From the NCBI GenBank assembly GCA_004335635.1, contig QAXH01005413.1, positions 31,026-95,025 on the forward strand: DNA of 64,000 bases. Reading direction: 5' to 3'. The position numbers and the translations under genes are program-made. This DNA is from Chloromonas sp. AAM2. Lineage: Eukaryota > Chlorophyta > Chlorophyceae > Chlamydomonadales > Chlamydomonadaceae. Positions 26,804 through 54,606 of this stretch are shown here, piece after piece; the first letter of the stretch is position 1; each line of letters starts with the position of its first letter. The notes beneath the pieces were generated by a model. It made no database searches. It worked only from the letters and a program-made list of their open reading frames with translations, and was not told the origin of the DNA.

Positions 26804-29556
26804 CTACCCATCTACCTTGATGCGCTTGTCAGCCTGCAAGCCTGCCAGGTGTGGTTGCCTGTTTGCCTGGATTCGTGGATCGAGTTCGGCACGCGACCTT
26901 TTGCCCAACGGTGACACGCCTGCTGATGCAGGAGACCCTTGTGACCCAGCCTGAACCAGTGCAGTGACTGCAGCTGTCGCATCAGGTGTAGATTGTGAAC
27001 TCTGGTTGGTTTTTGCTGTTGTGACTGGGACTGCTTGCAAACCTTGAGCCATGAGGACAGCAGGTGGAGCACCAGCCAGACATGAGCTCTTCACAATTGA
27101 ACCTTCCATAACGCGATAGGCAGCTGCTTGCTCTGCTGTAAGCACCACAGCATCATCGTAATACCACTTGTCTGTGTCGGGATCGTAGGTGCGATCAAAA
27201 GCTTCCCCTGAGATGGCACATGTGGGCTGAGATGGGTCCTCCTCAACAGGGGGCAGCTGCTCGGGCGCAGCGGGCTGCAAGACAACAAAGGCACCGCAGA
27301 GTATCACAGCACATGCGTGAATGGTGCAATGATGTGTAGAGTCAACGAGGCCACACCACGCCGGACTTCAATCACAGCAAGTTTGGCTGTTTGTCTGTGA
27401 GTGATGCCAGAATCGCCTATGCTGATTTGCAATGTGCATGCTGCGTGTCAAATGAGTTTCGAGCTCAATCCCCGGTCATGCGATATGGCACACATGGCTG
27501 ACCATGTTTTCTCAGCGCAGTATATCGTACGACACAGCCTCAAGCAACGAAGTGGTGCGCTAGTATCGCTGTTGTGGTGAACTGGTATTGTTGCCGTTAC
27601 ACAAGGGCATGCTGCTTTCATCGGACTGCGATGTCTTGGCCTGTTCCTCACCTCTTCGTGAAAATGCGCTGGAGCTTCTTCTGTTGCGCGAGTTCCTTCA
27701 AGCCACTGCTCGACTTTAACGAACCAAGGCCGCACTAAGTACGTGCTGGCTTGCAATCGGCGATTCCGTAAGAATTGCAAGTCGAGGAACTTGCGCTTGG
27801 TCTCAGACGATGCAGCGAACAATGCATCCACTGCTGCCTGTGCCGGGTCCTGCAGCAAATGTGCCAGTGTTACAAGTTGGAACCCGCCTATTTCCCTCAC
27901 AGTTTCAGTGAGTGGTTGCTTGCAGCTAGCTCTGCCTAGACGACATAATAATCACCCTGTGTAATCACCTTGCCAGGGCCAAATGCCTGTGTAAATCAAC
28001 TGACTACACGTGTTTTCCATTGCGTTGAATGAATGGTTGAATTTCATTGCGGCTTATACAGCTGCTGCTTTGACTTTTGTGTCGACCGAGACTACCAGCT
28101 TGCTGAATACCAGTTTGCTACCAGTGAGTGAGTATGAAGCCGAACTGCATGCTGTGGTAGAAACGCACGGCGGACCACTGTCGTGATACATGCCTGGGAC
28201 CGATACATGCCTTGGACCACTGTCGTGATACATGCCTTGGGCATGCCACAATGACGATCCATTTTTACAGGTCTGTCCAACAGGCCGTGCAGAGTCCAAA
28301 GCACCAACACTCGTAATTGACCAACAGGTCTCCATGAGCATGCATGTAGGCTGATTCATAGGCTGATTCATTGGCGCTGGACGACATATTGATACAAATG
28401 AGAGCACAGGCACGGAGACAGAAAACATAGACATGACCACAACTAGCATGGCCTGCTGTAACGGCCTTGTCTTGAGCATGCACAAAACAAAGGAAGGGCG
28501 AACACAAGAGCATACAAGAGAAGACGTGTACCATACCTGCTGAGCTGGCCCTCCTGAGCCACCGCCACTGCTGCTCGTCTGAAGCGCTGGTACACTGGCA
28601 GCAAGCTGCCCCAAGGTAGTGAGAAGGCTAGCCATGCCAGTAGCTGAAGGAGGAGCTTGAGCATTCAACACAGGCGCAGCCGCAACTTGGCCAGCCATGT
28701 GCTGCAAATGTGGGGGCAACATCATGCCAGCATATGCAGCCTGCAGAGCCTGTGGATACGCCGGCATGGCGGCAACGCCTGCAGTGCGCAGCGTCGGCGC
28801 CAGCGTTTGTTGCCCGTACGCATACTGTGGTGCCGGTTGCTGCGCTGCAACTGGTTGGAGCTGATGGGTAGCCAAGCCGGGCAGGGCTCCGGAAGAAAAA
28901 AGCAGGCTTTGCTGTGGTGCTGCAGCTGGCTGCGGAGGTTGCATCTTTTGCGTAATACTGTCGATAACATGGGCCGGCAGATAAGGCTGTGGCTCTTTCC
29001 ATGTGCCTGCAATCTTGACGAGCTTGGTGTGAAGATCAGGGGTTGAGCGGTCCCAGATAAACGCAAACACCTGCACCATACCAGGCATATGTGCTCTAAG
29101 ATGAGCTGACGGGCATTATCGGCAAGCAAGTGAAAGATTGCGGACTGGATGCCAGAGACTTTAGCACTACAGCAAAGCAGCCTCTTACCTCGGCCATGAC
29201 ACGAGCCAGCAGCTCGGAATACGGCTGGTTGACGCTCTTGAGGATGCAGTCCATCAAGTACAGGGCTGGAAGACGGTGTTGTGAAGGGCACTGCGCAGGC
29301 GATACATACCACGAAAACCTCAGTTGGGGCCACAACCCAGCAAGGCCTCAAGCCCAGCAGCAACAGTAGCAGAGGAAAAGCGTGTAAGGCGCCAGCCTAC
29401 CGTATGAACGTGCTTGACCAGCGCCTGGACGATGTCGGAGGCCTCATGTGGGTTCTCTCTGGCCAGGTCCCGCAAAAGCTTGATCTTTGATAACTCCGTA
29501 GTTGTGAGATCCTTGAGCGCCTCGCTGTAAGCGACGCCAAACCTGCCGAGAGCCAT
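26804..29556 (-). CDS. PCF11-like pre-mRNA cleavage complex subunit
   Basis: PCF11 couples the RNA polymerase II C-terminal tail to mRNA cleavage, polyadenylation and termination in the nucleus. Five exons (29556-29401, 29290-29189, 29070-28537, 27849-27652, 27274-26804 TAG) are all in phase 0 and give 486 aa. The N-terminal CID domain (about residues 1-130) is clear: YSEALKDLT, DIVQALVKHV, LPALYLMDCILKSV, VFAFIWDRS and KIAGTWKE. A Pro/Gln/Ala-rich, disordered middle follows. The C-terminal block has WFVKVEQWLEGT and then CAISGEAFDRTYDPDTDKWY with YYDDAVVL, as in plant PCF11-type proteins. The first zinc finger is degenerate: FLRNRR remains but the CxxC and His ligands are absent. The ATG at 29556 has a good context (AACCATGG) and begins the CID directly. 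A Lys/Arg tail (DKRIKVDG) ends the protein. Confidence 0.82.
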
Positions 29557-31144
29557 GGTTGGACAAATTTGCAGGCCGCGTGCTTGGTCTTGGGTTGGGA
29601 GCTGCACGACAGCAGACTGACTGCGTGCTGATGCGTGTGAGATGTTGCACAGGCGACAAGAGGCCGCAACATGCCTTCCTATTGCCGCACATGCATCACG
29701 GGCGCCGACGTTTCTGACCGTTGGCCACATGCCTTGTGCTGCATGGTCCGGGTGACTCCTCTAAGCCCCACCGTGCTGTGCGGACATGCACGAGTGACAG
29801 GTGACAGCTCATGGCCAGCAATGTATCATGAAGCAAAGGCTCGTGGCCAGCAATCTATCACGAACCAAAGGCTCATGGCCAACAATCTATCTTGTGCCAG
29901 AGACCGTTCCATCCAGGACTTCGCACTGCAGCAAATTTAGGAGTTACGACTGCGGATAACAAATCAAAGGTAGACCATGCAAGTGCAGTGCAGTGGAATA
30001 CACTGTTTGAGACTGCTTGTCAGCAGATGAAGGGCTCGACGGCTAAGGGAACAGGTTCAGCAAGAACGTCCAGGTCTTGTCGTCATCCTGCTAAGATCTG
30101 TCAAGGTTCACATGCCGGTTTGTATATTCCGGACTACAGGCAGTAATTTCATGGCAGGCTGCGCATGCAGCATAGAAGGGACGTGCGACGAGTAGAAAAC
30201 CTGGTTGTTCCATGCAAGCCGAGCTGGCAGATTCAGCTGAAGATGCACTCGTCAGAGAGTTGAGGCTGTGGATGCCCCGTGTCCTCAACATTGCTGGCAA
30301 GGACCTGATGTTTGTGAACATCTGTATGCATGCACGAAGGCACAACTTTTCGCCCCTTAGCTCGCAGCAAATTCACTCTTTCACGCAACACGCTGTCGAT
30401 CTTGCCTGGTCCTAAGCAAGAAAGCATGGGCCAAGGAACTCAAGCTACTCGTCCACACAAGACAAGCTAACTGAACCAAACTCAGTGGGTCAGTGTAACC
30501 TCAGATATATGCCATTGGACTCAAAACGGAGTGGCCTGCCCGTCTGCCAAACTCATTCGCACGAGGGCCTGACGTCACCAGTGAATGACAGGTGATGTAA
30601 TCATTCCGGCAGCACATCTAGTATCTATTCCTTCAGTATCAAAACAGGAGCAGAAGATTGTCACATCTATTCTTGGCGACCGTACTGCGACATGGCCAGC
30701 GCAGAAATCCGGCGCATGCAGGCCCTCTGCAGACCACCTGGCATGGATGGAGAGGAATGGTTTGCTGCTTGACGCCATCACGACACACTAAGCCAAGCGC
30801 AGGGTGGTGCCAAACCAGTGTACTCTTGCACTGTCACTAAATGACTGGTCCATGCCATCAGCCAACAAGTTTCTGTCATTGGGAATCCGCCCAGCTAGCA
30901 TGTGAAGGGATATATGACACACCGAGATAGTAGTGGTGGATTTTGATTGCAGTGGTTGAACAACAACAGCTTGGCACCCTCAGTCTGGCCACACCGAGCG
31001 CATGAAAACAGCGTGTGCAAGAAGATTGAGTGGACACTGTCAAGTTGCGGTGAACAGTCATACTGTTGCCTCATTGGTAGTGTAGTGCTGGCCTCAATGG
31101 TAGCGAGCCCTATTTTTTTGGGGGTGAGTATGCACACGTCCCCT
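29557..31144. other. Spacer between PCF11-like and DUF3253 genes
   Basis: This holds the PCF11-like promoter and the 3' flank of the DUF3253 gene. It includes one copy of an interspersed repeat (30605-30838). A plus-strand frame at 30212-30415 and its minus shadow are protein-like but unassigned. Confidence 0.55.
30605..30838 (+). repeat. Interspersed repeat, copy 1
   Basis: About 235 bp, near-identical to 49975-50203 in the same orientation, with shared blocks such as CATCTAGTATCTATTCCTTC and GGTGGTGCCAAACCAGTG. Copy 1 contains a segment (GATTGTCACATC) that differs from copy 2. No transposase is seen, so it may be a non-autonomous element. Confidence 0.8.
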
Positions 31145-33745
31145 TCATGGCAGTCTCAATCGGATGGGCCCCTTGAAGCTCTTGGGGTCAACGACCTGGA
31201 CAAGCACAACGGTAAGCAATGCGACAAACTGCGGCAAAACTCTTTGTTTTGTCATTGAGCATGACTCCAAGATTGGCTAATTTCTTGTCTGCTCCTCTGA
31301 TTCAGGACGCACGGCTAATTCCCGGGGGCACTGTCCCACATGGTAGCAAAGACAGTGGTGATTACTTACTGCCTGCATGCATCATGACAGCGACAACAGT
31401 ACCGATTGACCCACTGACTAACCGTTCGTGGCCCAACAATAGGTCAGTCAACTCTTACTCGGGCGGAAAAGTTTGCACTTGGCTGTAGTACTTGATTTGT
31501 CCCTTTGTTTTTTGGCATTGAACCAGAAGTAACAAGACAAGATGGATTAGGCATCCAAACAGACATCAGTTTAATTTTGAAGTCAGCCAGTGGTTTGGTT
31601 ACGTCAGTCAGTCAGTGTGGTCAGTCAGTCAGTGTGGTTTGGTTAGGCTTCCTGATTGCCATCTTTGCTCCCAAGGTGCCTTGCTGCATAATGATGAATT
31701 GCCATGGCCAGCCCCTGGAAACAAGGCTGACATATGACCCACCTGACCCTTTTGTGTAATGAACAGCCTCCCCTGCTCTGTCAGACCAACTGCAGCAGCG
31801 CGCACGTCGGGCATCAGCCCGCGCCAGTCAGACGGACTAGCCTGACGAGCCACCTGAAACCACCACCAGTGGGCCACGTGACATCATGAAGCAGGTATGT
31901 GCTGCAAACAGTGAGAGGCGTGAGACTGGCACTCGGTTTTTGACCTTTCAAGACAAGCCATTGGAATGATGTGAAGGCCAACGCCCAGCCGAATAAACAC
32001 GATCCTGCAAGCGTGACTCGAATGCCTGATGAACAGTCAGGCATGATGTGTGGTCATCGTGTGGGGTGAGTAGGCGGGCATGTGCATGGAACGCAACACC
32101 GTATCAGGCATAATGCATGCGGGGCAAACTGTTGAGTATGTGTGGAATAAGCAGCGAGCCCTTGTATGATTATCGCCTCTTGATTTTTCCGCCCCAGCGC
32201 TCGTGGCATGTGAGCTCAGGGGGAAAAGGGCTTTTAAGTACGGTAGTCAGAGTGGAGGGTGCAACGACCCTAGCAAGGAGTAAATACCTCTGACCAATTT
32301 GGATGCATCCTCAAGGTGCAAAAGGCATATATTCCAGGTTTGAGGTCATTCTGAGATGGTCATCCTGAAATGGTACATTCTGAGATGGCAAGAAGCTCGC
32401 CAGAGGTGTCATTTTTCCGACCTTTGTGTTACTCCCGCTCTACGGCGCGACCACAACGGATTCAAGGCTTCTGGAGGGGTGGCTGGATGCAGTTGCCAAG
32501 AGATACCCAAAACCACCTTTGATCTCCCAGATTGGATGGCCTGGTAATCTTGCACTTTTTTTTAAAACAAAATGAACTGGCTCCCAGATTGGGTGGCCTA
32601 GTATGAACTGCGTAGTGTCAGAGGTTGCCGGCGCTGGCGTGGCTCCGCAACCTGCGGCGCCAGGCCGCAGGTCATGCACGCAGCGATCCAAAGCCAACGC
32701 TCACCGCATGCACAGCGGGATGTCACAAAGCCCAGCCCCCGCACCCAGAAGGGGATGTCACAAAGCCCAGCCCCCGCACCCAGAAGGGGATGTCACAAGC
32801 CCCATCTGCAACGTGACATTGGTGGCGAGGGCCACCCAAGAAGGGTCACCCCCTTCTGGAAGGGGGGTGACATTGGGGTTTGGCTAGGGTTACGGGCGAG
32901 CATCCTGGAGTTCACCCATAAGTGAGGATTTAGTGGTCCCACAATGTGGCGATGTCACGCAACCGACTTGTCCAGGAGGTAGGTGTTGACGAGAGCTGTC
33001 GAGAGAGCCCCTTTCTATGTCATTCTGAGCTGCAAAAGTTCATTCTGAGCTGACGAAAGTCTGAGGTCGTTGTTTGTGCTGGGGCCACGGATTTTGCCGG
33101 CTGCAATCAACACGCCTTGCCTTGTGTGTTGATTTGACAGGTCACAAGCGTTTCCCTCACTCTGACGGCACTCTGACTTTGAATTTTCTCACTGCTACGC
33201 TTTGTAGTTTTTTCAGTCCGTTTACTCAGGTGGCCAGTCCTCTTCACATTTACCTCGCTGGGTCAGCAGGTGGCTCCGGCTGCACGACGCCCCAACAGAG
33301 CTAGAATCATTTCTTGTAGCCCCTCCTGCACGCGCGCATCACCATGTGTGGCTGATGCATGCAGGCGAAAGCACACGAGAAAGGATGCATGCGTGGTATG
33401 ATGGCATGGACCTTGTCTCTGTGGCTGAATGACATGTCTGTCCTCATGTCCTCCATCACCATGCGTGACTGCAGGCTTGCATTGGAGCAGAGTGGCAGGA
33501 CGACAGTGCCAATGCATTCCATACGGTCTATGCATTCCATACGGTGCTCAACACCTTCAGCATTTCCAGAGTAAAGTAATCCGGTGACTTGAAGAACGCC
33601 CATTGAACCCAGCCACCTTGGATGTGCTGTTTGCCCCGGCCTCTGCAATGGTTTGGGCAATCAACGGTGGTGATGATCCAGGACGCTGCTTCTTCTTAAC
33701 AGGGTCTGCAGCAGAAGCTGCGGATCCCTTGCGTTTGGAGGGCAT
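31145..33745 (-). CDS. DUF3253 protein, candidate selenoprotein (in-frame TGA)
   Basis: A small conserved protein of unknown function. Five exons, all phase 0: 33745-33617, 33468-33412, 33325-33254, 31853-31743 and 31195-31145, giving 139 residues if the TGA at 33265-33263 is read through. The N-terminus (MPSKRKGSAA, DPVKKKQRP) is basic and NLS-like. The domain covers ILALLGRRAAGAT, then C-TGA-PSE, VARQASPSDWRGLMPDVRAA, GRLFITQKGQ and VVDPKSFKGPIRLRLP, and is diagnostic of DUF3253 (a winged-helix-like fold, from memory). In the family the motif is T-I-C-P-S-E-V-A-R; here the TGA stands exactly at the Cys, and P-S-E continues in frame to a good donor (GAGGTAAAT). The true stop is TGA at 31147. 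I found no convincing SECIS element in the 3' flank. Alternatives are a sequencing error or a pseudogene. Confidence 0.83.
33263..33265 (-). other. In-frame TGA, candidate selenocysteine codon
   Basis: Reads TGC-TGA-CCC-AGC-GAG on the minus strand. Conserved DUF3253 sequence continues without a frame change for 56 codons over three exons after it, which is hard to explain if this is an ordinary stop. Confidence 0.6.
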
Positions 33746-33936: not shown

Positions 33937-36900
33937 ATGCAACAACGAGCGGTGTTGCAAGGCAGGTCACACCTGCTCTTGGCCAATGCAGTGCCCCATC
34001 GTGCCGTGGGCCGATGGACAGTCAGACGCCATCATCAGCGGGTGGTGAAGATTATGACGAGGGCTGGACAGGCTAACACAAGTAGGAAGGATACGTTTCA
34101 GCCCGAACCTTGGGGTGAGTCCTGTTAACCCTTCTGTGCAAGTGCCAGGGCGTGTGCTCCTCATGATGAATGGACTAGATTTGGCCTGGCAAGAAGAATG
34201 TACTGGATTGGAAAATCTTGAAAACCAGTGCGTGAAATCCCGCTACTTCCCTGAATTATCAAGCACGCATCCACATGCAAGTCCCAAAGACATTCTCGGC
34301 AGAGGTTTGGCTCTCAATCAAGAGTACTATCAGAAGTCGAATTTGTTCCAGTCACTGTTTGTTACAGTATTGTGTCATGTTGTCTCTCTGTGATGGGCAG
34401 GACTGTAGGTGGCGCAGTTGTGGTGAATTATATGCCAAAATATACAGGCCCAAGCTGAGCGTTGGCTGATCGAGTGTTAACAGGTCGAAACGGTACATGC
34501 ACTGTGTTCTGCAGGTCATTGGTATCCGATGCCACATGACATGCGCACATGGCCACACATTCCCTCTTCTGCCTCTTGCCATGTCTAAACGCGTATCCAT
34601 TCTTTCATGCCCGATTATGGCAATGAAAGCATCTGGTGTCTCTGCATGCAGATTGGATACAGCACTTGTGCATGGCTTGTGCGGCGTTTGTGCATGACTT
34701 GCGTATGACTTGCATGGTTGCACAGGGTTGGGGTTTCAAATGAACGAGCGTTATCTGGAATGGGACGACTCAGCCACCACTCAGCTCATCAAACTACACC
34801 TGTGCAACAAACTGGAACTGGTGAGCCCAAGACCGTTCAGGGAACAACCTGAGCGAAAAGGCCGAGCACATCCGTTAGTAAGGCATTCCAAGTCCAATAA
34901 AGTCCGCCAAGGCACTGTAAATTTTTCGTAAATTTTGTACATTTCGTAAATTTTGTGAATTTTTTATGTTGGTGAAGTAACTGTCAGCAGTTAGCCGAAG
35001 TCAGCCAATCTTTCTCTTCACGACCGGTTAATCCAGAAATCACTGGCTACAATGTTACCGGTCGTTCTCCCTCATCATCACCATCTTCATCACTAACAGC
35101 ACCTGTGTGCCTGCAGACTTTGGATCAAGTGGAGGAACGGTTGTTTCAACTAGGCACGTGCGTGGGCGTGGGGGTGAACGTCTTTGGCAAAAATGTTTCT
35201 GTAGGAGAATTCTCCTGTTCTCCTGTGCGGCAGGACAATATTTGCTTCTTGACATTGTGCTGTGGCAATCAATCTGCAAACAGATGTAAAGCTGCAGTGC
35301 GTCGGAAGATCTGACTGCGACTGCTAGGGCCTTGACATGGCATGGTCCAGTCCTGGGCTCGCGCCTGGCTGCTACTCAAGTATCCAAGTTGTGCAGTACA
35401 TCGCATTCCTGCGAGACTTGTAGCTAATTGTATTTAAACTACCAAAGCACTTGCGATTGTTATAAAAGTCCTCCTCACTCTCGATATCTGCCATCCGCAT
35501 GCCTGTCATCCTGGCAGGTTGGTTCCTGACATGATCAACAAGATGCCTCGCATGCGCGCCGACATCATACTGAGCCTTGTCAAGGACCCAACGGTGAGGG
35601 CACGTGACAGGCCATGTGACGGTCACATAGGGCAGGACAGTGCATGTGACGCTCACGTGAGGTGGCAGGACAGTGCATGTGACGCTCACGTGAGGTGGCA
35701 GGACAGTGCATGTGACGGTTTAAGGGAGTGCCGGGTGCGTGTGCTGTGACGCCCTGCTCAGCAGCATGCGGTCTGTGTCAGGAGTCCACTTGCAATAGAC
35801 CACACATGTTATCCACCATAAACAACAGTTTGACAAATTGCGCACAGCTTGTGTGGAATATTAAGCCACACATGCAGTCACATGCTGTATGTTTGGACGG
35901 TCAAGTCACATGGGTCTGGGTGTGCATGTGTCTCATGTGTCCCATGCTGGATGGTCAAGGCACATGGGTCTGGATGTGCATGTGTCTCATGCGTCACATG
36001 CTGGATGGTCAAGGCACATGGGTCTGGATGTGCTCGTGTCTGCAGGCCACCACTGAACAGCTCCTAGGGCTGAGAGACCTGCTGCCAAATACCAACATCT
36101 CACTCCTGGTCACACGATGGTTGGTGGTCACACATCTTACGCCACGTCATGAGCACGTGTTCATTGCTCCTCCTAATCGCTCGTAAATCAGAAGAATTTC
36201 AAAAGGATAACAAGACAGTCGTCTGATATTTCTTGGCATACTCGACACAGCCTCTTTTGTGCCCGCGCCTTTGCAGGCCATTCATAATGGTAGACTACAA
36301 CCTGGTTTCACTCAAAAGACGACTTGACGAGATCAAGTAAGTGTGAGGCAGTGTGTGACGCATGTGGCTTCAAGGTATAGTAGTGATCCTATCAACCTAT
36401 GGTGCCAATAGTACCACTAACAATAACAACACTGCAGTAACCCTAACCCCTGACGGCTGTTGCAACCCTAGCCCAACCCTAGCCTAGCCTTGCCTAAACC
36501 TAACCTAACCCTACCCTACAGGGAGCAGCTTCCTGGTGTGCGAGTGGAGGCCCTGATTGACCTGGAACCCCAGCTACTGAAAGTGGACATACCGCTGGTA
36601 AAGGGGTGCCAGGGGGGTGCCTGTGCGGTGCAAGTGGGTTGCGAGTGGACTCAAAGCGTAGCAGTGTGTGGAGTTGAAGAGTAGCAGTGTGTGGAGTTGA
36701 AGCGTAGCAGTGAGCGGATTCAAAGCGTAGCAGTGAGAGCAGAGCGCCAAAGGCAAGTTCTGGTGCAGTGAGGGTGGGCGGTGAGAGGATCATGTGTGTG
36801 TCTGGGAGCCAGCAGCTTCAGCAATCGGGCATTGAGTTCCAGACAGAGCCAAGCAGGCCCTCAGTGCATCACACGCTACGCTGTTTGAAACATGGTTGTA

Positions 36901-49641: not shown

Positions 49642-52600
49642 GCACATGCCGTTGCTCTCCCTTCTCTCATGTCGTTGTTTCCACCCCACCCTCTTCTCCT
49701 TTCAGGTGCTTTTCATGTGCACGGCCAATGTGTTGGACACCATACCCGGGCCCCTGCTGGATAGAATGGAGGTACGGGGAAGGCATGTGGCAGGGGAGAC
49801 TACTGCAGCAAGTTTGCAGCGGGCTGTGAGGGGCTTGGTCAGCTGAACGCTTCGGTTCAGAATGCACACGCCCAGACGCCATATGTAGGTGTTATCTGTT
49901 GCACGAACCTGTAAGTTGCAGCCTCCTTTTGCCTGTGCGCCCAGTCCTGTTCCACTGATAGCCACATGCGCATGCCGGCAGCACATCTAGTATCTATTCC
50001 TTCAGTATCAAAACAGGAGCAGAACAGGCTCGCACACTCAGTGACCGTACAGCCACATGGCCAGCGCAGGAATCCGGCGCATGCAGGCCCTCTGCAGACC
50101 CCCTGGCATGGATGGAAAGGAATGGTTTGCTGCTTGACGCCATCACGACACACTAAGCCAACCGCAGGGTGGTGCCAAACCAGTGTACTCTTGCACTGTC
50201 ACTGCTTCATGCCATTAAGATTGGCTGAGCCAAGCATGTTAGCTCTCAACAACTTCCTACCATCTACACAGATCACAAGCAGGGAGGCAACCAAGCCCGT
50301 TCAACTATCGTTGTGCGGCAGTCAAGCTCTCACACACACGCTCTCTTCTCAGCAGCAGTTCCTAGCTTCCCTCCTCCCCATCACTCGCAGGTTCCCTCGG
50401 GACTCCACACATGCATGCATCTGACTGCCCGCGCCTGCCTCCATATGTTGTCTTCACCCTGTGCTTTGCCCCATGCGCTCTATCTCATGCTTCTCCTCAT
50501 GCGCTTTATCTCATGCACTTTGCCCCATGCGCTTTATCTCATGCTTCTCCCCATGCGCTTTATCTCATGCTTCTCCCCATGCGCTTCATCTCATGCACTT
50601 TACCCCATGCACTTTACCCCATGCTTCACCCCATGCGCTCTGCCGCAGGTCATCAGGTTGAGTGGCTATGCAGCCGATGAAAAGACGGCCATTGCCCGGC
50701 GATACCTGGAGCCCCAGGCAGGTCAAGGGCATGGGGGTCCGTAATACGATCGAGTGCAGGTTGACATGAGGGCAGGGTAAGGCTAGGGTATAGAGTACTG
50801 TGTATAGAGTACTCTGCAGCTTGGTTACAGGGTATAGTATGGTTACGGGTGGCGGGGGTAACCAAGAAATGCCGTCAGCTGTGAAATGAGAGAGAAGGCA
50901 GAATCTTGACTTGTTGCCAACAACGTACAACCGCCTACAACTGTTTGTCTGGTTCACATCTGTGCATGCTCTGCCACTGTCTGTTTGAGGCTGCTGCTGC
51001 ACATTGCTGTTGCAGGTTGAAACATGCAATTGCCGATGTAATTCAATGGAGATGAATATACTCATGCATAAGTCAACCCCTTCAGCAATGTTGACCCCTA
51101 ACTGGATGTGAACCTGACACTTAAAACAATTCAATCTTGACCTGTCAGGCCGCTGCCGATGCCGGTGTTCCTGCGGGCGTGGCTAGAATAACGGATGACG
51201 CCATGGACTGCCTCATCAACGAGTACTGCAGGTTGGTTGGTTGGTTGGTTGGGGTGGTTGGCGGGTTGGTAAACATCAAGGTTAGAATACTACCGGGCGG
51301 GAACTCCACGGCAGTCAGGTATGGCGTCCAGGTAGGTTGGTTGGTTGGTTGGTTGGTTGGTTGGTTGGTTGGTGGCTTGGTTGACCACTGTTGTCTACCA
51401 GCTCACCCCACTTGTTCTCCCCTGGTATTCCTTCGTTTGGCCGCTGGCTTAGTGCAGGCAATACACTGACTGGTGCATTTCGTGGGCGTTGTGATTTTAC
51501 TGTATGACCTTCAACCAAGCATATACGCTCGCACATTGCAGGGAGGCCGGCGTTCGTAATCTGAAGAAACAGCTGGAGAAGATTTACCGCAAAGTTGCGC
51601 TCAAGGTTTTTAAACAAACAGGCCCGCACCCCGCCGCGTCCCACCCCTCCGCCATGGGAAGTAATTTGCCGTCACCCGCCACCGCCCCTGCCACCCCCGC
51701 CATCCCCAGCCCCGCAGTTCTGCCTGTTAGCGCCTCAGGAACAGCCCAACTGCCAACACCTGGGGTTGGTGGTGTCGGCGTGCCTGGCGGAAGCAGCGGA
51801 AGTGCAAACGGTGGCGATGCGGGTTTTGAGGGCGGACGGGGCGGGGATGCGCTGGGGGCTGTGACTGCCCACTTTGACAGAAGCAGTGACAATGACAGTG
51901 CTTTGGGCGGCGGGAGTGACAGCGCCTCGCAACCACCGGCTGGCGGGCAGCAAGCGGAAAAGCAGCAGGTGCGCGGATGGAAAGAGCAACAGACACGGTG
52001 AAACAGGTCGGAAAGGTGGGTGCCCCACACAGACATATGAACATACACACAGGACACTAGATCAAGTCCAGGAGTTGTGTGTGCGCAGGGTTCCCATTCT
52101 CCAGTCGTCTATTCAGGCGATCCAATAGTCATTGACAAGCGGTTGCTGAAGGACTATGTGGGCCAGGCTCCCTTTTCCAAGGACCATTTCTACGACCATA
52201 CCCCGGCTGGGGTTGTAATGGGCCTTGCATGGACGGCCATGGGGGGGGCGACTTTGTACGTGGAGGCAGCGAGGGTGCAAGACTCGGAGCAGAAGGGGGC
52301 GATAACAGTCACAGGTGCGCGTGTGCTGGCTTGGCTTGGCTTGTCCGACTTGGCTTGGCTTGGCTTTGCTGTCAAGGGCGATGATCATCATTTCATTCAT
52401 TACATAGCTTCTCATGGTTCAACCCACGGTGCCGCAGGACCAACGAGCTAGGCGCTCAACAGCAGCCAACATCCCCATCCCAAGCACAGCATGGGCATGG
52501 TGCCCCCAAAAGTCATGCACATGCAAGGTTCAGGGCGATGATGATGAGCGCAAAAACCCGATGTCATGGATCATATGTGGGAAAAATTTGAGCGGTGGTG

Positions 52601-54606
52601 ACGGTTACCTCATAGCCTGACTACGCCATGGCATGCTCGCCCTTTCATTGTTACCATGCATGACCGTGGGTTGCATGCGTTGTGTGTGCTTTTGTGTTTG
52701 CATGTACGTTGTGTTTGCATGTCGCCTGGGCCCCCCCTCCACCACCACTCTTTTCCTGGTGAGTGTATGCAGGTCAGCTGGGCGAGGTTTTCCGGGAAAG
52801 CATCACCATCGCCCACACATTCGCCCGCTCCTTCCTTACATCAGTGGATTCGAACAACAAGTTCTTGTCAACCGCAGCGCTGCACGTGCATGTGCCCCAG
52901 GTGAGCGCACGTGATGCAGAAAGAAACGGCTAATGAGGCCAAGCACATGGCAGCAGTTCGTTATGTACCTGAACCACGTGCCTTATCTACAGGATTGAAA
53001 ACTACTATGTTCAACTATTTAAATAGTAATCAAATGGAATTGAAATTGCAATTGTATCACCACACGTAGAGTTCGTCAATCGCAAACCTCAACAACCCAA
53101 ACAAAACCAGAGATTGTAAACATGTTTTAAAGTGGCTGTTACATCCCGCATGCTGTCTGTATGTATGGCATGTATCACATGTATGTGTGATGCGGCATAA
53201 CATCATTTGTCTACATGTGTGACATGTGTAACATGTGCGACATGTGCGACATGTGCGACATGTGCGACATGTGTGGCATGTGCGACATGTGCGGCATGTG
53301 CGGCATGTGCGGCATGTGCGACATGTGCGACATGTGCGACATGTGCGGCATGTGCGACATGTGCGGCATGTGCGGCATGTGCGACATGTGCGGCATGTGC
53401 GACATGTGCGGCATGTGCGGCATGTGCGGCATGTGCGGCATGTGCGGCATGTGCGGCATGTGCGGCATGTGCGACATGTGCGGCATGTGCGACATGTGCG
53501 GCATGTGCGACATGTGCGACATGCTGCAGGGATCAACTCCCAAGGATGGCCCCAGTGCCGGGTGTACGGTCATCACAGCCCTGCTCTCACTGGCCTTAAA
53601 CCGCCCGGTCACTCCCAACATGGCAATGACAGGGGAGGTCACACTTACAGGGCGGGTACTGCCCATTGGAGGAGTCAAGGAGAAGCTGCTAGCGGCACGG
53701 AGAGCAGGCGTGAAGCAGGTGATAGGCTCAAGGGTCAGGAGCAAGGTGCAGGTGTGAGGTTGATTCCTGTGTCATCACCACAGTCGAGCGCGCTTGACTG
53801 AACAAAAACTCGTGAGTTGCTGGATGTATGCTGCTGGCCGCTGGCCACCCATCTCTGCTGGCCTATCACAAAGCTTGACTGCAGTCCGGCGAAGTCCAGT
53901 CGAAGTTTGTAGCTGCAGATGATGCGGTATCAACTGTTGTGCTGCAAATCTGCCCTGGCAGAACGTGTGCAGTCCTGTAAACTGAACCCTAGGGTGCAGT
54001 GCAACACTCAAAGACCACATGGCATTTCCAGCGTCAAACATTTGCTTTTTGCAACTGTTCCAGCCCCAGAGCTGTAGCAAGGAGAGGCAGGGGTGCCCCA
54101 CTCTCAACTTGGAACCATGTAGCTAGTGATGACATTCGTACTTTGCACCCTGCTACCAGTGCGTTTTCTTGGCTTGATGATTGTCAGGCGCGTATTCTTG
54201 GAGAGATGTTGTGTCTAGGTGATGATGACTCAAACACCTGTCTCTGTTTCAGTAACGAATTGTGTCACTCAGTAACGAATTGTGTCACACTTTGCATCGT
54301 TCGTTGCATCATTCAGCTCAGTCACATGTTCAGCGCCCACGTGACGGTTCATTTCGCTGTTTTTGCGGCACTTTTCAGATCATCTTTCCCGCGGGCAACC
54401 GGGCAGACTACGAGGAGCTGTCTGAAGATCTCAAGGCAGGCATTACGCCCCACTTTGTATCCCTCTACAAACAGATCTTCAACCTTGCGCTGGGGGGTGA
54501 AGCGCCTGCAGACAGTGCGCCGGCCCCTGCTGCCGACTTGATAGGGTTCGCCGGGGGTCCAATGCCGGAGGGGGCTGTGACAACGGTGGGGGCTGCAGGG
54601 CAGTGA
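38809..54606 (+). CDS. LON1: Mitochondrial Lon protease (25 exons)
   Basis: ATP-dependent AAA+ serine protease of mitochondrial protein quality control. Exons: 38809-38960, 39670-39829, 40621-40733, 41514-41697, 42422-42505, 43169-43243, 43515-43605, 43891-43983, 44171-44285, 44732-44804, 45366-45478, 45849-45945, 46343-46447, 47143-47232, 47718-47857, 48225-48331, 48886-48989, 49706-49771, 50649-50717, 51149-51231, 51542-51968, 52089-52314, 52773-52900, 53530-53718, 54379-54606 (TGA): 1103 aa, all in phase. The N-terminus ([19 protein letters not shown]) is a mitochondrial presequence. The LON substrate domain starts at about residue 105 ([11 protein letters not shown]). Walker A is GPPGVGKTS (about 522), Walker [10 protein letters not shown] (about 585), catalytic Ser in KDGPSAG (about 974) and Lys in [10 protein letters not shown] (about 1015). 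A Pro/Gly-rich linker (about 727-847) separates AAA+ and protease domains. There is no peroxisomal C-terminal tripeptide (ends AAGQ). Confidence 0.96.
41123..41293. repeat. 25-bp tandem repeat in Lon intron 3
   Basis: About seven units of the type CTCAGCTACCCGTAGAGCCT. It is intronic, with no sign of spacers or of CRISPR organisation. Confidence 0.85.
41988..42410. repeat. About 46-bp tandem repeat with assembly gap
   Basis: Units of CATGACTCTGACAGTGATAG plus CTTGTGCACCAGA(C/G)ACAGTT flank 191 N (42052-42242). The gap therefore lies inside the array and its true length is unknown. It is in Lon intron 4, so the coding model is not affected. Confidence 0.9.
44288..44331 (+). repeat. Duplicated piece of Lon exon 9 in the next intron
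   Basis: This intron segment repeats 44229-44271 of the preceding exon almost exactly (shared TGACGTCACCCTGCAGCAGG). It starts directly after the donor of exon 9. It is out of the coding model. Confidence 0.8.
49605..49640. repeat. (GT)n microsatellite
   Basis: About 17 GT units in Lon intron 17. Confidence 0.9.
49975..50203 (+). repeat. Interspersed repeat, copy 2
   Basis: The second copy of the element at 30605-30838, inside Lon intron 18 in the sense orientation. Confidence 0.8.
50465..50645. repeat. About 26-bp CATGCGCTTTATCTCATGCT repeat
   Basis: A pyrimidine-rich tandem array that runs right up to the acceptor of Lon exon 19 (50649). It probably supplies the polypyrimidine tract. Confidence 0.8.
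51232..51374. repeat. (GGTT)n tracts in Lon intron 20
   Basis: Two runs of GGTT (51232-51255 and 51332-51372), the first beginning at the donor of exon 20 itself. Confidence 0.85.
52380..52540 (+). repeat. Interspersed repeat family (TCATGGTTCAACCCA)
   Basis: About 160 bp, closely similar to 101-265. Shorter relatives are at about 7786-7830 and 44010-44085 (plus), and at 42943-42990 on the minus strand. No coding capacity is assigned; it is in Lon intron 22. Confidence 0.75.
53215..53527. repeat. 9-bp minisatellite at a Lon splice acceptor
   Basis: About 34 units of GACATGTGC/GGCATGTGC in Lon intron 23, ending in ATGCTGCAG, which is the acceptor of exon 24. Because 9 is a multiple of 3 and units lack stops, all frames stay open. 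The frame in phase with exon 24 reads Cys-Asp-Met/Cys-Gly-Met repeats. Confidence 0.92.

Follow-up and report, generated by a model that had tools for sequence, protein, structure and literature searches.

A putative selenocysteine codon at the near-invariant cysteine of a DUF3253 gene in the green alga Chloromonas sp. AAM2

INTRODUCTION

Thioredoxin reductases carry an adjacent cysteine and selenocysteine (a Cys-Sec pair, GCUG) that form a reversible Se-S bond. Table 1 of a 2026 review of prokaryotic selenoproteins likewise gives adjacent Cys and Sec residues (CU) for HgcA, SaoL, and SaoC, and the review describes most of the characterized members as thioredoxin-like (PMC13188914). For algae, the main text of a selenoproteome survey describes genes with UGA in place of a Cys codon, which are scarce in several groups of green algae, and lists one hypothetical selenoprotein, Hypo (PMC7539508). 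Moreover, some predicted algal selenoproteins have no predicted SECIS element, according to another study (PMC6627142).

No mention of DUF3253 or PF11625 was found in the literature searched. The term "DUF" is absent from the main text of PMC7539508, where Hypo is given by that name only; the strings "PF11625" and "3253" have zero occurrences in the available portion of PMC13188914. Here, we describe a DUF3253 gene in a 64,000-nt stretch of the Chloromonas sp. AAM2 assembly (contig QAXH01005413.1; the whole stretch is hereafter called the window), in which an in-frame UGA occupies the site of a near-invariant cysteine. The algal protein resembles other members of DUF3253 (PF11625) in possessing the whole domain and the T-x-C-P-S-E-V-A-R motif, and its nearest solved structure is the DUF3253 structure 2ns0 from Rhodococcus sp.; its gene differs from the family in having UGA at the Cys, a Cys at the usual Ile, and introns that split it. 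If the UGA is read as selenocysteine, the protein would share an adjacent Cys and Sec with thioredoxin reductase and, according to Table 1 of the review, with HgcA, SaoL, and SaoC, all of which belong to other families, and, unlike in these proteins, the pair would stand directly before a helix of a winged-helix fold.

RESULTS

An in-frame TGA in an otherwise intact DUF3253 gene

The gene lies on the minus strand and was read as the following features (coordinates are those of the window).

33617..33745, minus strand, possible first coding exon MPSKRKGSAASAADPVKKKQRPGSSPPLIAQTIAEAGANSTSK (hypothetical; an ATG and a phase-0 join fit)
33254..33325, minus strand, coding exon EGLQEMILALLGRRAAGATC-TGA-PSE of DUF3253 (from translation), followed by GTAAAT
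33263..33265, minus strand, in-frame TGA at the near-invariant DUF3253 Cys, candidate Sec codon (from the alignment of homologues)
31854..33253, minus strand, phase-0 intron, GTAAAT...TTTCAG (splice borders read)
31743..31853, minus strand, coding exon VARQASPSDWRGLMPDVRAAAVGLTEQGRLFITQKGQ (AG/GT borders, phase 0)
31196..31742, minus strand, phase-0 intron, GTGGGT...GTCCAG (splice borders read)
31145..31195, minus strand, last coding exon VVDPKSFKGPIRLRLP with the stop TGA at 31147-31145 (from translation and the AG border)

Together, the exons at 33325-33254, 31853-31743, and 31195-31145 encode the full DUF3253 domain, and their 77 codons contain no further stop and no frameshift, with splice borders that fit. 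A preliminary description of the window had proposed that TGA replaces the conserved Cys and that coding continues beyond it for 56 codons, through two phase-0 introns, to a normal TGA stop at 31147. All of these points were confirmed by the reading GATC-TGA-PSE on the minus strand, the 3+37+16 codons distributed over the three exons, the AG/GT borders of the introns, and the stop at 31147-31145. When C was written at the UGA and the guessed first exon was placed in front, the joined protein matched the Pfam DUF3253 model (PF11625) with 96 bits (E 1.6e-27; cut-off 22.1) over residues 46-120 of 120; the guessed first exon (33745-33617), the donor of which is weak (AAG/GTGGCT), falls outside this match. 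No NCBIfam model matched. Genome searches revealed a single DUF3253 match and a single copy of the TGA exon in the 74-Mb assembly.

The TGA occupies a cysteine site of the family

The site was compared in an alignment of 132 homologues, which were the listed matches of three protein searches (22 + 3 + 107 new), the largest of which covered the best 120 of 6583 DUF3253 protein matches; because these homologues are best-scoring matches, the resulting figures describe close relatives. At the position aligned with the TGA, 130 homologues have Cys, one has Leu, and one has a gap, giving Cys in 130 of the 131 homologues with a residue there, and the Leu belongs to a protein whose start falls at this site (P0019). 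The preceding residue is Ile in 116 homologues, Leu in 7, Val in 3, Ala in 2, Cys in 1, and Met in 1, with a gap in 2, indicating that the Cys that the algal gene carries in place of the usual Ile is rare (1/130). This extra Cys beside the TGA fits a Cys-Sec pair; a nonsense mutation arising at random would not introduce a second Cys. Single-base changes across the three exons (77 codons) can produce a stop by 21 routes, 6 of which give TGA, two of these six being at Cys codons and one at the observed TGA codon. The UGA is thus found at the Cys site of the homologues with conserved coding on either side, both of which are criteria for eukaryotic selenoproteins. A further sequence of 57 aa, P0023, which comes from a contig of 24 kb, has 70% identity to the last exons, begins at the Met past the conserved site, and ends in a Lys-rich tail; it may have been predicted in truncated form from a different eukaryote.

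The host genome appears to decode UGA as selenocysteine at other genes

A tRNA-Sec with the anticodon UCA (ARAGORN) was detected on contig C1896 with 72.2 bits (cut-off 47), being the only one of six matches above the cut-off. SepSecS was represented by four exon matches on contig C1054, all above the family cut-off, with a family model that also gives matches in 3 of 14 control genomes. The selB/eEFSec model gave 16 genome matches, none of which reached the family cut-off, and two exons on contig C1986 carry LVDCPGHASLIRTIIGG and FAIDHCFPIKGQGTVLTG, which we take to be eEFSec-like by motif recognition. Selenocysteine synthesis is accordingly represented by tRNA-Sec, SepSecS, and these motif-named exons below the selB cut-off.

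Moreover, two other genes have an in-frame TGA at a known Sec/Cys site, and in both the Cys written at the TGA aligns with the Cys of solved relatives. One is a glutathione peroxidase on contig C1043 (L067/L020) with TGA at the catalytic site (NVASE-TGA-PLQNVNYPGL), which matched PF00255 with 96.9 bits when Cys was written at the TGA; its last exon and stop were read by eye, and no clear SECIS was detected within ~2 kb of the stop, where only CC-type or weak AA-type candidates occurred. Three other peroxidase loci (C1610, C145, and C225) have Cys, not TGA. The second is an AhpC/TSA_2-type gene on contig C792 (FARSFG-TGA-PFC-REL; TGA at L068:1315-1317), the protein of which, with Cys at the TGA, matched PF13911 in the part that follows the Cys (51.7 bits) and PF00578 over a stretch that includes it (32.5 bits). 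This gene has an ATGA...AA...TGAT SECIS element at L068:2827, ~180 nt past its TAG stop, with a score of -24.0 versus -10.9 for the next best on the same strand within 10 kb, and it is apparently a selenoprotein gene.

A Sec-type thioredoxin reductase was rejected as a control: there were seven Pyr_redox_dim matches, and the one on C437 runs on to AAEEFVTMR and was taken as glutathione reductase. The end pattern GC-TGA-G gave 61 matches; in 14 of the 30 loci examined, the motif is followed by a stop, and by eye none of these resembled a reductase. The Rdx family (selenoproteins W, T, and H) gave one genome match, without CxxU, and MsrA gave no match in the genome. Contigs C2240, C1117, and C1744 (L018, L008, and L009) contain AT-rich stretches (27-32% GC) with bacterial-looking GPX and EF-Tu genes and are likely bacterial or organelle contigs within the assembly.

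A SECIS-like fold downstream of the gene lies in a repeat

Three further features concern the search for a SECIS element.

30690..30797, minus strand, SECIS-like fold with a GUGAU / GGAU core, whose UGA starts at 30780
30602..30838, minus strand, 237-bp repeat unit containing the SECIS-like fold, 91% identical to 50203-49971 (minus)
49971..50203, minus strand, second repeat copy, antisense to Lon and flanked by its exons as read from frames

Rfam revealed no SECIS in 28500-31200, including the 3' flank, at E up to 10, none in the whole window at the gathering cut-off, none at the C1043 peroxidase locus at E up to 10, and none with SECIS_1 among the 133 of 887 whole-genome candidates that were scored. 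Because no SECIS was listed at the peroxidase or genome-wide either, Rfam was judged to be insensitive here. A narrow scan of 31300-29000, with a limited apical part, gave just two weak CC-type candidates (30503 and 30577), which were rejected as lying at background density, since the two strands of the window together give 65 matches with an energy of -8 kcal/mol or lower. A wider scan allowing a longer apical helix, which was run post hoc after the narrow scan had failed, gave the candidate at 30780. The preliminary description had reported no convincing SECIS and had proposed a SECIS finder for 31144-30400. Since its scan covered only 31144-30840, it could not have seen the candidate at 30780, which lies farther 3'. 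Taken together, Rfam and the narrow scan were negative and the wide scan yielded this candidate within the repeat.

The candidate (GTGAT...AAACC...GGAT) is located 365 nt beyond the DUF3253 stop and consists of a helix I of 10 pairs, a UGA/GA core, a helix II of 11 pairs, AAA where the apical part begins, and a long helix III, which gives it a canonical look. When 30795-30695 was folded without constraints, the minimum-energy structure showed this SECIS architecture. Among the 91 candidates that the wide scan gave over the two strands of the window, the element ranked second and was the best AA-type one. The same architecture in an unconstrained fold was found 17 times (14 distinct, the 30780 fold being one of them) in 619,028 strand-nt of host genome loci, which partly overlap and include some bacterial contigs, and at this rate the chance of one match in the 1.65-kb flank is ~4%. 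The UGA-to-GA distance is 71 nt versus 53 nt in the C792 element, and the stability of the fold is no better than that of shuffled sequences (z +0.77; 156/200 at least as good). For comparison, the C792 element has z -0.63 (49/200 at least as good), and its 89 nt fold without helix I when unconstrained. The SECIS scans recovered one of the two control genes (C792 but not the C1043 peroxidase), which limits the power of the SECIS test. The 30780 fold is taken as a weakly supported candidate SECIS for the DUF3253 gene.

The two repeat copies are 19 kb apart and each retains a short open frame; the other host genome loci that were compared contained no further copy. The copy at 49971-50203 lies outside any selenoprotein UTR; the name Lon for the gene around it is that of the preliminary description. 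Selection on the SECIS core, as judged from differences between the copies, was rejected, most of the differences lying in one patch outside the core. Near the Lon exons, a short unit is repeated in a long tandem array (53191-53569), the frames of which read as repeated TCR, HVR, CGM or CDM. Upstream of the DUF3253 gene, at 36284 on the minus strand, ATGA...AAA...AGAA forms a SECIS-like core whose stem is stable (-18.8); the frames preceding it were read by eye.

A bacterial DUF3253 gene with UGA at the same cysteine

A scan of GTDB genomes for the pattern I-TGA-P-x-E-V-A-R, directed at one codon of DUF3253, gave 28 matches, one of which is the DUF3253 gene of Verrucomicrobia bacterium MAG-85 (L077, JAHDID010000069.1). 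This gene is open from ATG to TAA apart from a TGA at the same Cys. The other 27 matches had no DUF3253 sequence past the pattern, and none of the five pattern matches in viral contigs was DUF3253. The MAG-85 gene is like the algal gene in having an in-frame UGA at this Cys and differs from it in being bacterial, in retaining Ile before the UGA, and in that it would need a bSECIS within the coding region. The hairpin past the MAG-85 UGA has -20.4 kcal/mol (z -2.16; 6/200 shuffles as good). As given in the Fig. 2 legend of PMC13188914, the bSECIS definition includes 16-37 nt between UGA and loop; the MAG-85 hairpin fits that legend in its loop of 5 nt with G as the second base, its upper stem of 6 bp, and its minimum free energy, with a UGA-to-loop distance of 15 nt, just below the range. 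The same stretch in eight Cys-type DUF3253 genes from plasmids has -8.5 to -24.5, one of the eight folding better than MAG-85, and the hairpin was rejected as proof of a bSECIS, its energy being within the range of these Cys controls.

Predicted fold around the conserved site

The AlphaFold model of one homologue (P0024) has a mean pLDDT of 90.2 and a TM score of 0.81 to 2ns0. Its weaker structure matches, all with E values above 0.001, were mostly winged-helix proteins such as Fur, MarR, and PadR regulators. In this model, the conserved Cys (residue 20) stands immediately before a helix (residues 21-28), and the thiol or selenol at this site could be unusually reactive.

DISCUSSION

We consider insertion of selenocysteine to be the best explanation of the UGA in the algal DUF3253 gene, with a probability of about 0.6 (this value and the weights given to the other explanations are judgments, not computed posteriors); because the host makes selenocysteine, the UGA probably inserts it. 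The preliminary proposal of a new selenoprotein stands with respect to the Cys/UGA exchange, the intact coding on both sides of the TGA, a host with selenocysteine machinery and two genes with UGA for Sec, and the UGA in a bacterial DUF3253 gene, and its insecure part is the SECIS.

The TGA may instead be a true stop (a nonsense allele, a young pseudogene, or an assembly base error), in which case translation would end after GATC. A genome is expected to contain nonsense lesions and assembly errors more often than new selenoprotein families, one base change from TGC suffices, and neither Rfam nor the narrow scan gave a secure SECIS; the UGA of MAG-85 could be such an event too, given thousands of DUF3253 genes (6583 matches). 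We therefore regard a true stop as a serious possibility, well short of an even chance, considering that, by 1 of 21 routes, the change would have struck the codon at which a UGA is meaningful, beside an additional Cys that is itself rare (1/130), within 77 codons that otherwise show neither stop nor frameshift and have fitting splice borders, in a genome that appears to decode UGA as Sec elsewhere. Passage of the UGA without selenocysteine, by ordinary readthrough or by RNA processing that eliminates or changes this codon, is very improbable: nothing specific speaks for it, the C that follows the TGA being a context that favors readthrough in some eukaryotes, and neither process accounts for the placement of the UGA on the conserved Cys.

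Under the selenocysteine reading, the UGA at 33265-33263 would be read as Sec in place of the near-invariant cysteine of a DUF3253 winged-helix protein, resulting in a vicinal Cys-Sec pair (GATCUPSE). Decoding would involve tRNA-Sec and eEFSec and would be directed by a 3'-UTR SECIS, which may be the fold at 30797-30690. Since the Cys directly precedes a helix in the P0024 model, the selenol might be activated by the helix end, and the Sec may form a reversible Se-S bond with the adjacent Cys that would serve as a redox switch. A broader scenario, in which DUF3253 is a Cys/Sec family in bacteria and algae, the repeat-borne SECIS-like fold enabled the switch to Sec in this alga by arriving in the 3' UTR, and the Cys-Sec pair is a selenium redox switch, is speculative and, taken as a whole, unlikely.

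The gene is also a warning, as ordinary gene finders would end it at the UGA. If the selenocysteine reading is true, DUF3253 would add a selenoprotein family with a winged-helix fold, the locus might allow the origin of a SECIS to be followed back to a repeat, and a redox role would be indicated for the unstudied Cys of this widespread and unstudied family.
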